DNA from: Hyalangium ruber
GTDB taxonomy: Bacteria; Myxococcota; Myxococcia; Myxococcales; Myxococcaceae
Length of the DNA: 64,000 nucleotides
NCBI RefSeq assembly: GCF_034259325.1
Contig: NZ_JAXIVS010000001.1
Span: forward strand, 558,001 to 622,000
Reading direction: 5' to 3'
Positions 5,801-59,753 of this stretch are shown here, in pieces; the stretch's first letter is position 1, and each line of letters starts with the position of its first letter. A program made the translations under genes and the position numbers. A model generated the notes under the pieces. That model worked only from the letters and a program-made list of their open reading frames with translations, was not told the DNA's origin and made no database searches.

Positions 5801-6061
5801 TCAGCCGTGCGAGACGTGGGACTCCACGGCCTCGAGCGAGCGGAACTCTCCCCCAGGCAATCCCCCGAGCAGGGTGAGGACCGCGGCGGGAGCCCCATTC
5901 TCCTGGGCCACACGGGTGAGCTGCTGCGCCGAGAGCGGGAACACCGCACCCTGCAAAGCCTCCCGCAACCCGGAGGTGGGCGGCGCGAGGAGCGGCTTCG
6001 CACGTGCCTCCAAATCACCCGATCCAGAGGGGGATTGGGCTCGTGTCATGTCGTCGTTCAT
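5801..6061 (-). CDS. DUF2795-family small protein
   Basis: 86 aa. The C-terminal two-thirds match the DUF2795 pattern: ALQGAVFPLSAQQL, then NGAPAAVLTLLGGLP and a final FRSLEAVESHV. A hydrophilic N-terminal stretch of about 30 residues precedes it. The function of this family is unknown. The start at 6061 (MNDDMTRAQ) has no good ribosome-binding site; a second in-frame ATG is at 6049. It is divergent from the 67-aa gene at 6215. Confidence 0.7.
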   Translation of the reverse strand: MNDDMTRAQSPSGSGDLEARAKPLLAPPTSGLREALQGAVFPLSAQQLTRVAQENGAPAAVLTLLGGLPGGEFRSLEAVESHVSHG

Positions 6062-23133: not shown

Positions 23134-23217
23134 GCGGTGAACCTCGGCGGGGGGCGAGAAGAAGGACCGGCGCGCACCCTAGCCGGTCCCGTACCGCCGG
23201 CCAACCTGAGTGGTGCG

Positions 23218-54813: not shown

Positions 54814-54840
54814 ACTCCCCCTGCACGGGGGAGTTTTTTT
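54814..54840 (+). terminator. Rho-independent terminator
   Basis: An 8-bp stem ACTCCCCC/GGGGGAGT with loop TGCAC is followed by a run of seven T (54834-54840). It ends the DUF3108-DUF4091-DUF3108 operon. Confidence 0.93.
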
Positions 54841-54854
54841 GGTGCTCAAATTGA

Positions 54855-54886
54855 TACTGGTTTGCAAAATCATTTGCAAACCAGTA
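54855..54886. promoter_or_regulatory. Perfect 14-bp inverted repeat, candidate operator
   Basis: TACTGGTTTGCAAA at 54855-54868 is repeated inverted as TTTGCAAACCAGTA at 54873-54886 with spacer ATCA. The block is A/T-rich in a G+C-rich genome. It lies 16 bp before the ATG of a porin gene that starts an imelysin/di-heme oxidoreductase operon. It overlaps a TGATACTGGTTTGCA segment that matches the Fur consensus at 11 of 15 positions. Fur or another metal regulator is a likely binder. Confidence 0.6.
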
Positions 54887-54902
54887 GGGTGCGCGCCGTT
54901 CG

Positions 54903-56225
54903 ATGCGCTCCCCCTCCCTGTTCCTGTCCTTGCTGTGTGCCACCGCCCTGCTCACCGCGCCCGCCGCTCGGGCTGACGACAAGGACGAGGAGAAGGCCGA
55001 GAAGAAGCGCCCGGAGATCAACTTCGAGTTCGGCGGGTACGCCGACCTGCAGTTCGCCTTCTACAACCACGGCGAGAACCAGAACCGCGAGGGTGGCGCG
55101 CAGCGGGATGCGCGGGTGACTTTCGACACGACGCGGCTGGTGCTGGAGCTGGAGGGCTCCATGCCCGAGTACGGGCTGGAGGCCGAGGTGGAGGTCGAGT
55201 TCGAGCACGGAGGCACCGGCGCCTCGATGGAGCTCGAATACGAGGAGTTCGGCGAGTTCGAGCAGGAGGTGGAGAAGGGCGGCGAGGTGCGGGTGGAAGA
55301 GCTCTACCTGAAGAAGGAGTTCGGGGAGCGCTTCTCGCTGTCGATCGGTCGCTTCTACGTGGCGACGGGGCTGCTGAGCGCGTTCTCCCGGCCCACCGAC
55401 TACCTGGGGACGATCCGCGCCGAATCGGAGACGCTCATCATCCCCAACACCTGGGATGAGATGGGGGTGCAGGGTCGGGCGTCGCTGGGCAGCGTGCAGC
55501 TGACGGCGCAGGTGATCAACGGGCTGGACTCCACCGCCTTCAACTCACAGCGATGGGTGGCCGAGGGGCACCAGACCCGCTTCGAGCTGGTGCGCGCCAG
55601 GGATCTGGCGATGGTGCTCCGGGCGGATGTCACGAGCTTCGAGGGAGTGGTGTTCGGTGCCTCCGGCTATTACGGGGACACGACCCGCAACCGGCCCAAG
55701 CCGGACCTGGTGAAGGCGTGCGAAGCGTCGAATGACCGGGTGGTGGCCCCGTGCGGCTACATCTCCGCGCCGCTGCTGCTGCTGGACGCGCACCTGTCGG
55801 CGCAGCGAGGCCCGTGGCGCGCCAAGGCGCTGGCCATGTGGGGCTACCTCCAGAACGCGGATGACATCTCCGCGCGCAACGCCCGCCTGTCCAACTTCCT
55901 GAACGTGACTCGCACCCCGGTAGCCGAGCACGCCCTGGCGGCGTGGGCAGAGCTGGGCTTCAACGTCTCCTCCTCCGTGGGGCTGAGCACGGACCACCGG
56001 CTCGAGCCCTACGTGCGCTTCGACTACGCGGACTCGGTGCTCAACCCGCGCACCGAACTCTTCGACAACCCACGCTTCGCCCGCGCCATCTACACGGTGG
56101 GCACCTCTTACACGCTGGCGGGCGTGGCCTACTCGAAGCTCGACTTCAGCCACCGCCGCCTCGGCGACTCCTCTCGCTTCCGGCCGGAAAACACCGTCCG
56201 GCTCTCCACCGGCTTCTCCTACTGA
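54903..56225 (+). CDS. Predicted outer-membrane porin of iron operon
   Basis: 440 aa. Signal peptide (LCATALLTAPAARA), then a short charged helix (DDKDEEKAEKKRPE) and beta-barrel strands: FEFGGYADLQFAFYN, FDTTRLVLELEGS, LSIGRFYVATG. It ends LSTGFSY, with an aromatic C-terminal residue as in outer-membrane barrels. It resembles phosphate-selective or general porins, but the substrate is unknown. It lies 12 bp before the imelysin gene. The operator above and the partners suggest it admits an iron-related substrate. Confidence 0.8.
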   Translation: MRSPSLFLSLLCATALLTAPAARADDKDEEKAEKKRPEINFEFGGYADLQFAFYNHGENQNREGGAQRDARVTFDTTRLVLELEGSMPEYGLEAEVEVEFEHGGTGASMELEYEEFGEFEQEVEKGGEVRVEELYLKKEFGERFSLSIGRFYVATGLLSAFSRPTDYLGTIRAESETLIIPNTWDEMGVQGRASLGSVQLTAQVINGLDSTAFNSQRWVAEGHQTRFELVRARDLAMVLRADVTSFEGVVFGASGYYGDTTRNRPKPDLVKACEASNDRVVAPCGYISAPLLLLDAHLSAQRGPWRAKALAMWGYLQNADDISARNARLSNFLNVTRTPVAEHALAAWAELGFNVSSSVGLSTDHRLEPYVRFDYADSVLNPRTELFDNPRFARAIYTVGTSYTLAGVAYSKLDFSHRRLGDSSRFRPENTVRLSTGFSY

Positions 56226-56237
56226 AGGAAAATCCTG

Positions 56238-57323
56238 ATGCACCTGCCCTCTACTTCGCTCCGTACCCTCGTCCTCGCCGCGGCGCTCGCGCTCACCTCC
56301 TGCGGCTCCGATGACGAGGGCACCACCGAGTCCTCGTTCGACAAGGAGATCATCGTCCACTTCGCCGATGACGTGGTCGTCCCCACGTACCAGCAGCTCG
56401 CCACGCGGCTGAACACGCTGGACGTCGCGGTGCAGGCACTCGCGAACGGGCCGACCGCCGCCCGGCTCACCGCGGCGCAGGACGCATGGATCGCCGCGCG
56501 CGAGCCGTGGGAGCAGAGCGAGGGCTTTCTCTTCGGGCCGGTGGATTCCTTCGGCTACGATCCGGCCCTGGACAGCTGGCCGCTGAACCGCTCGGACCTG
56601 GACGCGGTGCTGGCGAGCAATGACAACTTCACGCCGGCGTACGTCGCCAGCCTCCAGACGACCCAGAAGGGCTTCCACACGGTGGAGTACCTCTTGTTCG
56701 GCGAGGGCCGCACCAAGCAGGTAGGGGACTTCAACGCGCGCCAGTTCGAGTACCTGAAGGCGATCTCCGCGGAGCTGAAGAGCGTGAGCACCGCACTGGC
56801 ATCCGCCTGGACGCAGTCGGTGGACGGCCGTCCGCCGTACCGGGATGTGCTGACCACCGCGGGCCAGTCGACCAACACCGCCTACCCGTCCGTGGAGACG
56901 GCGGCCCAGGAGATGGTGGTCGGAATCATCAACATCCTCGATGAGGTCGCCAACGGGAAGATCGCCGATCCGTATGACGCGAAGGACCCGGAGCTCGTGG
57001 AGAGCCAGTTCGCCTACAACTCGCTCACCGACTTCACCAACAACATCCGCAGCGTGGAGAACGTCTACCTGGGCCATCTGCCCGGCGAGACGGCGCGCGG
57101 CCCCGCGCTCACGGACTTCGTCAAGGGCGAGGACGCCGCACTGGACACGCGCATCCGTCAGGAGCTGGCCGCCTCCATCGCGGCCCTGGCCGCCATTCCC
57201 CAGCCCTTCCGCAGCGCCATCACGAATCCCGATGCCAAGGAAGAGATCGAGGCCGCGCAGGAGGCCATCCGCAAGCTGCAGCAGACCTTCGAGGCGAACG
57301 TCAAGCCGCTCCTGACGCGCTAG
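56238..57323 (+). CDS. Imelysin-family lipoprotein
   Basis: 361 aa. Lipoprotein signal (LAAALALTSCGSD, Cys22). The imelysin domain has the GxHxxE signature as G145-F-H147-T-V-E150, plus DAWIAAREPWEQSEGFLFGPVD and ENVYLG. Imelysin-like proteins are periplasmic or surface iron-binding or haem-processing proteins; the exact ligand varies. It lies between the porin and the di-heme oxidoreductase. Confidence 0.95.
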   Translation: MHLPSTSLRTLVLAAALALTSCGSDDEGTTESSFDKEIIVHFADDVVVPTYQQLATRLNTLDVAVQALANGPTAARLTAAQDAWIAAREPWEQSEGFLFGPVDSFGYDPALDSWPLNRSDLDAVLASNDNFTPAYVASLQTTQKGFHTVEYLLFGEGRTKQVGDFNARQFEYLKAISAELKSVSTALASAWTQSVDGRPPYRDVLTTAGQSTNTAYPSVETAAQEMVVGIINILDEVANGKIADPYDAKDPELVESQFAYNSLTDFTNNIRSVENVYLGHLPGETARGPALTDFVKGEDAALDTRIRQELAASIAALAAIPQPFRSAITNPDAKEEIEAAQEAIRKLQQTFEANVKPLLTR

Positions 57324-57342
57324 AATGGTCCGGGGGGACACC

Positions 57343-58665
57343 ATGCGACGGGCGCTCACGCTGTGGACGGTGCTGACACTGACTTGGGGCTGCGGTGAAC
57401 CGGAGCCCCCTCCGCGCGCGGGGGGCGCCACCACCATCGATGACCGCACGTCGCTGGCCTATGCCCAACCGGCACCCAACCTCTCCGCCGAGAGCGCCCA
57501 ACACCACCGCGCGGGGGATGCCGCCTTCGCGGCGGCGTTCGTCCCCTCCCCCTCCCCGGTGAACCCAGGACTGGGCCCACTCTACAACAACAACTCCTGC
57601 AACGCCTGCCACCTGCGCAACGGCCGGGGCATGCCCGTGATGGGCTCCGGCCCGCAGCGCACCCAGCTCCTCGTCCGCGTCAGCCTGCCCGAGGGTACGC
57701 CCAGCCACCTCAACGGCTCCGTGCCCGTGCCCGGGCTGGGAACCCAGGTGGCGGATCAGGCCATCTACGGTTCCACGCCCGAGGCCTCGGTCACCCTGGA
57801 TTGGGTCGAGACCGAGAGCGCGTATGGCGATGGAACGCTCTACCGGCTCCGCAGCCCTCGCGTCACCATCGTCCCCAGCGATGGCTCGGCGCTCCCCCCG
57901 GGGATGCTGACCTCGCTGCGCCTGCCGCCCCCCGTCTTCGGACTGGGCCTGCTCGAAGCGGTCGAGGCCTCCACCCTGCACTCCCTGGCCGACCCAGGGG
58001 ATCGCGATGGGGACGGAATCTCCGGCCGCATCAACGAGGTCTGGGATGTTCAAGCCGGCGCACTGGCTCCGGGGCGCTTCGGGCAGAAGGCCAACAGCCC
58101 CAACCTGCTCCAGCAGTCGGCCGAGGCCTACTTCAACGACATGGGCTTGACGACGCCCCTCTTCCCCGAGGCGAACGGCACCCACGAGGTGTCTCACGAC
58201 ACGCTGGAGGCCGCGGCCTTCTACGCGCAGACCCTTGGCGTGCCGGCCCGCGCCGCGCTCGATGACGCGGAGGTCCAGAAAGGAGAGGACCTCTTCCGCT
58301 CGCTGGGCTGCGAGAGCTGCCACCGCGAGACGCTGGAGACGGGCGATCACCCGCTCATGGAGCTGAGCCAGCAGCTCATCCACCCCTATACGGATCTCCT
58401 GCTGCATGACATGGGGCCCGGACTCGCGGACGGACGGCCGGATGGGGCCGCCAGTGGGACCGAGTGGCGCACGGCGCCGCTGTGGGGCCTGGGACTGACG
58501 CAGACCGTGCTGCCCTACGCGGGCTACCTGCACGATGGCCGGGCCCGAACGCTCGAGGAGGCCATCATCTGGCACGGCGGCGAGGCCGAACGCGCCAAAG
58601 AGCGCTTCCGGACCCTCTCGGCCTCGGAGCGCGCCGCGCTGGTCCGCTTCCTCCACTCCCTCTGA
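57343..58665 (+). CDS. Di-heme oxidoreductase (DUF1111/thiol-oxidoreductase-like) lipoprotein
   Basis: 440 aa. Lipoprotein signal (LTLTWGCGEP, Cys17). Two c-type haem sites: C86-NA-C89-H90 and C323-ES-C326-H327. The GLGLLEAVEA and calcium-like DRDGDGISGRIN segments and the C-terminal LPYAGYLHDGRARTLEEAI match the DHOR family found in imelysin operons. It probably carries out periplasmic electron transfer during iron acquisition. GGGGGG lies 5 nt before the ATG at 57343; an in-frame ATG at 57325 also exists. Confidence 0.93.
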   Translation: MRRALTLWTVLTLTWGCGEPEPPPRAGGATTIDDRTSLAYAQPAPNLSAESAQHHRAGDAAFAAAFVPSPSPVNPGLGPLYNNNSCNACHLRNGRGMPVMGSGPQRTQLLVRVSLPEGTPSHLNGSVPVPGLGTQVADQAIYGSTPEASVTLDWVETESAYGDGTLYRLRSPRVTIVPSDGSALPPGMLTSLRLPPPVFGLGLLEAVEASTLHSLADPGDRDGDGISGRINEVWDVQAGALAPGRFGQKANSPNLLQQSAEAYFNDMGLTTPLFPEANGTHEVSHDTLEAAAFYAQTLGVPARAALDDAEVQKGEDLFRSLGCESCHRETLETGDHPLMELSQQLIHPYTDLLLHDMGPGLADGRPDGAASGTEWRTAPLWGLGLTQTVLPYAGYLHDGRARTLEEAIIWHGGEAERAKERFRTLSASERAALVRFLHSL

Positions 58666-58731
58666 ACACTCCAGGGCGGGCGCCGGGCCGCTCCGGCTTG
58701 ACCCGCCTCGCTTCTTCCTGCATCCTTATTT

Positions 58732-58746
58732 TGAAATTGGTTATCA
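58732..58746. promoter_or_regulatory. Candidate Fur box
   Basis: TGAAATTGGTTATCA matches the 7-1-7 consensus TGATAATGATTATCA at 12 of 15 positions. It sits within a larger imperfect dyad (TGAAATTGGTT against AATCAAATTCA). It overlaps a TTGAAA -35-like element and lies 33 bp before the 84-aa protein ATG, which has AAAGGAG. This A/T-rich stretch is clearly unlike its surroundings. Confidence 0.65.
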
Positions 58747-58779
58747 GAATCAAATTCATAGCAATTCAAAGGAGCCGCC

Positions 58780-59034
58780 ATGACACCCACCCCCTGCCAA
58801 CGTACGGTTCTCGCCAGCAGCCCCTCCTCGGAAGTGACGCGCTGCAGTTGTGGCCACATCCACCTGAGCGTCGGGCCGGTGACGATCCGCATGGATGAGG
58901 ACATGCTGCACGCGGCCTGGCACACGCTGGGAGACGCGCTGCGATCGCTGGCCAGCCTCCCCACCCCGAGCACCAGCGAGGTGGCGCACCCGGCGGCGGC
59001 GGGGCGGCGGGCGCCCGGGGAGTGGGAGCAATGA
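58780..59034 (+). CDS. Small CxCGHxH protein of unknown function
   Basis: 84 aa. A short N-terminal region leads to C22-S-C24-G-H-I-H28, a compact cluster that could bind metal or haem, then LSVGPVTIRMDEDMLHAAWHTLGDALRSL, probably a beta hairpin and helix. AAAGGAG lies 6 nt before the ATG. It follows a candidate Fur box, and its stop overlaps the next start (ATGA), so the two are translated together. I do not recognise the family. Confidence 0.75.
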   Translation: MTPTPCQRTVLASSPSSEVTRCSCGHIHLSVGPVTIRMDEDMLHAAWHTLGDALRSLASLPTPSTSEVAHPAAAGRRAPGEWEQ

Positions 59035-59753
59035 GCGGCCGGGGGCACGTCCAGAGCCTGGGGCCGCTCCGGCTGACGGAGCTGCTCCAGCGCACCACCC
59101 AGGAGGAGACTCGAGCGGCGGCGGGCTCGCGTTTCGCTCGGCGCCTCTCCCTGGGACGGGTGGACCGGGACGGCTACGTGCGGCTCTTGTCCTGCCTCCA
59201 GTCCCTCTACGCGGAGCTGGAGTGGTCCCTCGAGTGGAACCACCGCCACCCATCGGTGTCCCCCTTCTGCCTGCCCGAGATGTGGCGCAACGAGCTGCTG
59301 CAGGATGATCTGCGCACCCTGCTCGGCCCCTCCTGGTACGAACGCGCCCCCCGGCAGAGCGCCATGCCATGGGTGGACCGGCTCGGCCTGCTGTGTGACG
59401 CGGCGCCCGAGTTGCTCGCCGCCCACGCCTGGGCGCTCTACGTCCTGGACATCCCCGGTGCGGCGGCGGCCGGCGCGGAGGTGGCGCGAGGCCTCGGGCT
59501 GCGCGGCGGCGCGGGCACTGTCTTCCTCCGCCACATCTCCGGCCTCGAGGGAACGGTGGGTCGGGTGCGCATCCTCGACGCGCTCGATCGCTTGTCGTTG
59601 GATACCACCACCCGCAGCGCGCTCCTGGGAGAGGCGCGAGTCGCCACGGGGATGCTCCGTGAACTCCTCGCGGCGCTGGATCGGCCTCGACTGCTCACCC
59701 TCAGCTCGCGCGAGGACACCACGGGCGGCGCGATGTTGGACGCGTCCGTGTGA
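59031..59753 (+). CDS. Heme-oxygenase-like protein lacking the usual proximal His
   Basis: 240 aa. The helical pattern LTELLQRTTQEETRAAAGSRFARRLSLGRVDRDGYVRLL and SLYAELEWSLEW fits bacterial haem oxygenases of the BphO type, as does the later HISGLEGTVGRV segment. At the position where these enzymes have the haem-ligating His (TxxxH), this protein reads TQEET. It may therefore be an inactive relative, use another ligand, or be a wider HO-fold protein. It is coupled to the CxCGHxH gene behind a Fur-type site, which supports a role in haem or iron. Confidence 0.6.
   Translation: MSGRGHVQSLGPLRLTELLQRTTQEETRAAAGSRFARRLSLGRVDRDGYVRLLSCLQSLYAELEWSLEWNHRHPSVSPFCLPEMWRNELLQDDLRTLLGPSWYERAPRQSAMPWVDRLGLLCDAAPELLAAHAWALYVLDIPGAAAAGAEVARGLGLRGGAGTVFLRHISGLEGTVGRVRILDALDRLSLDTTTRSALLGEARVATGMLRELLAALDRPRLLTLSSREDTTGGAMLDASV

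Follow-up and report, generated by a model that had tools for sequence, protein, structure and literature searches.

We believe that the porin, imelysin and di-heme oxidoreductase (DHOR) genes in the analysed stretch of the Hyalangium ruber genome (64,000 nucleotides, hereafter the window) very probably form a Fur-repressed iron-acquisition operon, in which a 21-bp Fur-type box at 54852-54872 would serve as the operator and the perfect palindrome overlapping it would be a local mutation. The promoter is an ordinary but well-supported Fur-type one that heads an imelysin operon. The first-pass annotation had already suggested an iron-regulated imelysin/di-heme operon, and with a Fur-type box conserved in 30/30 orthologous promoters this is still the best reading. 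The features are collected in Table 1.

Table 1. Features of the operon and its surroundings (positions in the window)
Feature	Position	Strand	Basis
Intrinsic-terminator-like hairpin and T-run of the upstream DUF3108 gene	54815..54840	+	Sequence
Fur-type box TGATACTGGTTTGCAAAATCA, conserved candidate operator	54852..54872	+	Consensus match; conservation in 30/30 orthologous promoters
Perfect 14-bp inverted repeat, 4-nt loop	54855..54886	.	Exact match in the window; lineage-specific
-35 element TTGCAA, inside the Fur box	54862..54867	+	TTGCA[ATG] in 30/30 orthologous promoters
-10 element TAGGGT	54885..54890	+	-10 starting with TA in 30/30 orthologous promoters
Porin-like outer-membrane barrel, 440 aa	54903..56225	+	Orthologues 34-80% identical; structure model
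Imelysin (Peptidase_M75) lipoprotein	56238..57323	+	PF09375, E 3.2e-77
Di-heme oxidoreductase (DHOR/DUF1111-type) lipoprotein	57325..58665	+	PF06537, E 2.4e-98
Second Fur-type box TGAAATTGGTTATCAGAATCA	58732..58752	+	15/20 vs E. coli consensus, the best in the window
Small CxCG protein, 84 aa	58780..59034	+	Homologue in 20/29 other heme-oxygenase loci
Heme oxygenase	59031..59753	+	PF01126, E 3e-19

The classic Fur box used for scoring was the E. coli 21-bp consensus TGATAATGATNATCATTATCA, with which the box at 54852 agrees at 14 of 20 positions. Only this site and the one at 58732 reach at least 14/20 in the 64 kb, and none of 100 shuffles of the 420-bp upstream region attained the score of the former. 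It was claimed initially that the sequence differs from classic Fur boxes; however, a Fur-like 21-mer, one of the two best consensus matches of the window, overlaps the left arm of the palindrome. The consensus scan ranks the conserved site first or second in 30/30 orthologous promoters, where the boxes are degenerate (11-14/20); these promoters belong to kin and are not independent samples. The second test used a matrix trained solely on heme-oxygenase promoters (Fur-like arrays) of other myxobacterial genomes; because similarity to the E. coli consensus guided the choice of its training sites, it is independent of the porin promoters, not of the consensus. By this matrix the porin site ranks first or second of approximately 4,200 positions at all 30 loci; whenever another position outranks it, that position is its own copy in a register 6 bp away. 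The top six of the 64,000 positions of the window all fall in the promoters at 54852 and 58732. Fur-type boxes are also found upstream of the Lujinxingia porin. The deltaproteobacterial Fur box is given as WTGAAAATNATTTTCAW (PMC545781). A strict motif derived from the two window sites matches the genome nowhere else, and is too strict to define a regulon.

The distance between the -35 and -10 elements is 17 bp in 28 of the 30 promoters (the window included) and 18 bp in the other two. The genome has three instances of the pattern TTG-N20-TAGGGTGCGC (control, 0). A second promoter-like element, TTG-N20-TAGGGTGCGCGCC, lies at 23171-23204 on the minus strand and has no Fur box; this may be a general promoter form of the H. 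ruber genome. The terminator-like hairpin (CTCCCCC-TGCAC-GGGGGAG-T7) stands directly ahead of the palindrome region. The leader of the porin operon mRNA is probably very short, since few nucleotides separate the expected start site from the ATG and no clear Shine-Dalgarno sequence was found ahead of the latter.

It can be asked whether the conserved 21-mer is simply the core promoter (-35) with UP-like AT sequence, not bound by Fur. Its invariant part, GGTTTGCA, contains the -35 element, and agreement with the E. coli consensus is limited to the 11-14/20 mentioned above. The centre of the box, GGTTTGC, is almost invariant among the orthologous promoters; such conservation exceeds the needs of Fur and its reason is probably that the centre doubles as the -35 element, so part of the box conservation could be promoter conservation. 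However, the TGA and TC(A/G) ends, which lie 21 bp from each other and beyond the -35 element, are kept in 30/30 promoters, a matrix from unrelated iron promoters puts the 21-mer at the top in every locus, and the register shifted by 6 bp, which is typical of Fur arrays, is present in many of the orthologues. We consider a promoter element without Fur very unlikely, and retain the Fur-type box.

The palindrome reads TACTGGTTTGCAAA-ATCA-TTTGCAAACCAGTA, and its description in the first-pass annotation (perfect 14-bp arms, a 4-nt spacer, an end 16 nt short of the porin start codon at 54903, a terminator-like element upstream) is exact. Among perfect inverted repeats with a loop of at most 12 it is the longest in the window (arm 14, next-best 10), and 20 order-2 Markov replicates of the window gave longest arms of 9-12; thus, the repeat is beyond chance. 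No second copy turned up when the 10.77-Mb genome was searched at a tolerance of 3 mismatches, and its shorter core TTGCAAANNNNTTTGCAA occurs at near-control numbers; the palindrome was rejected as a regulon motif on these grounds. Fetched loci of the same family supplied 29 further full porin orthologues for comparison, all outside the genus. When their promoters are read in the register of the window, no more than 1-6 of the 14 arm positions pair, i.e., the repeat is lacking in 29/29. The annotation that proposed the palindrome as the operator had named this absence as contrary evidence, and the proposal has to be abandoned. The palindrome is a lineage-specific curiosity overlapping a conserved Fur-type box.

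The palindrome could still be a new operator, acquired in this lineage, for a dimeric regulator other than Fur; it is perfect and longer than chance, it sits between the -35 and -10 elements, where a repressor would act, and it folds strongly as single-stranded DNA (z -4.8). We find this highly improbable: the genome has one copy with no related sites found, the 29 orthologous promoters do not have it, no regulator gene adjoins it, and its left arm is already accounted for by the Fur box and the -35 element, as is its final TA by the -10 element. An mRNA hairpin or attenuator is also unlikely, considering that the repeat is upstream of the putative -10 element. The inverted copy was further considered as an added Fur register and rejected, as the +6 register scores 13.6 against an orthologue median of 16.7 and the +12 and +18 registers are negative; it neither strengthens nor extends the Fur registers, so no gain for Fur binding is seen.

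The orthologous promoters keep the left arm and not the right one. Most relatives have AAATC and then GC-rich sequence in place of TTTGCAAACCAG of the window, with the length and the 17-bp -35/-10 spacing kept. It appears that the 12 bp separating the Fur box from the -10 element were swapped for an inverted copy of the Fur-box/-35 stretch, which would have produced the perfect palindrome. Replacement by an exact inverted copy of the neighbouring sequence at unchanged length is a signature of template switching, and we presume that such a mutation in the promoter spacer is the probable source of the palindrome. Template switching in inverted repeats is an event class treated in PMC8604942 and PMC3820800.

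Among the proteins of the genome are a strong Fur (PF01475, E 5e-39) and a single, weaker paralogue of the FUR family, and boxes of 14-17/20 precede TonB receptors, one of which is adjoined by HmuY. It is hardly probable that another regulator of the Fur superfamily (e.g., a paralogue of Zur or Mur type, for which the presence of the weaker FUR-family protein speaks) uses the site at 54852, as the same box type is common to the porin, heme-oxygenase, TonB-receptor and HmuY promoters, which points to iron/heme, and the gene content of the porin operon is of the iron type. Fur is known to regulate the imelysin-peroxidase operons of Pseudomonas and Vibrio (PMC3143127) and to repress siderophore synthesis in M. 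xanthus (PMC11388931); porins are predicted under Fur in Geobacter relatives (PMC545781). As separate observations, a fur gene stands immediately upstream of the porin-imelysin-DHOR genes in a Myxococcales MAG (L048:1-978), and at L099:985-1005 and 5874-5894 Fur-type boxes occur close to a TonB receptor paired with HmuY and to a DUF6607 protein, a probable heme uptake locus.

The heme-oxygenase operon downstream has a box of its own at 58732, which recurs 6 bp to either side, at 58726 and 58738. Its CxCG gene, which overlaps the heme oxygenase gene by ATGA, encodes a protein without a match in the Pfam/NCBIfam searches. Most other myxobacteria carry arrays of 14-16/20 boxes with 6-bp shifts ahead of their heme-oxygenase genes. 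The operon follows DHOR in the window and is missing from this place in the relatives (15 syntenic loci). The closest homologues, at 55-58%, belong to g3 and g7, two further genera of the family, and to genomes where no porin was found; these operons have similar boxes and the small CxCG gene. With its best homologues in genomes that gave no porin match, the operon was probably gained in the lineage of the window.

The gene assignments made at first hold well: the imelysin and the lipoprotein with two CXXCH motifs (57598-57612 and 58309-58323) match PF09375 and PF06537, and a structure model gives the first gene a barrel fold. The GxHxxE motif of the imelysin is intact (GFHTVE at 56670-56687), its lipobox reads LTSC, and it matches the solved imelysin structures 3n8u and 4ecg. 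No Pfam family, PF07396 (Porin_O_P) included, matches the porin at E 0.01, and its sequence matches no solved structure; the predicted fold (mean pLDDT 66) matches OprP and OmpF-type barrels by Foldseek. The genes have the same order in 15/15 loci retrieved by searching with the imelysin, among them those of Lujinxingia (52-55% identity) and Tenacibaculum (34-43%), i.e., out to Bacteroidota, which contradicts the remark that a porin in first place is less usual. In three related genomes (G059, G069 and G112) the porin is matched only in part, with a stop interrupting one of the matches, and the imelysin search at E 1e-10 found nothing; the operon seems to be in decay or already lost in them.

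Residues 97-132 of the porin (55190-55310) form an acid-rich segment that is nearly invariant from Myxococcota to Bacteroidota (pattern EFEHGGTGxxxELExEEfGEf...GGexxxEelY, with invariant E/H residues). Its composition would suit the binding of cations or iron; its pLDDT in the model is below 50, and its placement in the pore is therefore of low confidence. We tentatively propose, as a possibility, that the porin founds an unnamed family, spread from Myxococcota to Bacteroidota, whose members would always work together with an imelysin and a di-heme protein and in which this segment would be a dedicated outer-membrane iron gate.

The mechanism that we infer from the sequence is as follows. When iron is plentiful, Fe(II)-Fur would occupy the 21-bp box; with the -35 element inside the box, RNA polymerase would be kept out by simple steric hindrance. 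When iron is scarce, Fur would leave, and the porin, imelysin and DHOR genes would be transcribed from the -10 element TAGGGT. Iron would cross the outer membrane through the porin, and at the periplasmic face of the membrane the two lipoproteins, the imelysin and the di-heme protein, would bind it and process it by redox reactions. The CxCG/heme-oxygenase operon would respond to its own Fur box.

The result offers a testable definition of the Fur box for myxobacteria, and it makes iron control probable for a porin-imelysin-DHOR trio that is conserved but has no name. As for the palindrome, it illustrates that a perfect repeat in a promoter may be an accident of one lineage and may overlap a conserved operator that is less conspicuous. 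Should the acidic segment of the porin bind iron, imelysins would obtain a partner and an entry route.

As regards known systems, the porin resembles OprP (2o4v, the best Foldseek match of its model) in the barrel fold; identity is 12%, and the porin has its conserved acid-rich segment in contrast to the arginine ladder named in the title of 2o4v. An imelysin domain with a partner of the heme peroxidase type is shared with EfeUOB/EfeO; however, there is no EfeU permease among the operon genes, and the EfeO model gives the H. ruber imelysin 33 bits against a cut-off of 270, far below, which places it outside the EfeO class. Similarly to the psp porins of Geobacter and Desulfuromonas (PMC545781), a porin-like gene is predicted under Fur with a proposed role in iron entry; those are weakly PF07396-like and linked to feoAB, whereas the H. 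ruber porin is without a Pfam match and linked to imelysin-DHOR. The operator candidate shares with the Fur boxes of E. coli and deltaproteobacteria the length of 21 bp, the imperfect symmetry with TGA...TCA ends, the AT-richness, the overlap with the -35 element, the registers shifted by 6 bp and the place ahead of iron genes; unlike in those, the centre GGTTTGC is degenerate and doubles as the -35 element, and an unrelated perfect palindrome adjoins and overlaps the site in the H. ruber genome only. Further parallels are PA4370-PA4373 of P. aeruginosa and VC1264-1266 of V. cholerae (PMC3143127), where a GxHxxE imelysin also stands beside a DUF1111/DHOR protein with a Fur-type site; unlike these, the H. 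ruber operon starts with a porin-like barrel and has a single imelysin, and its trio reaches Bacteroidota.
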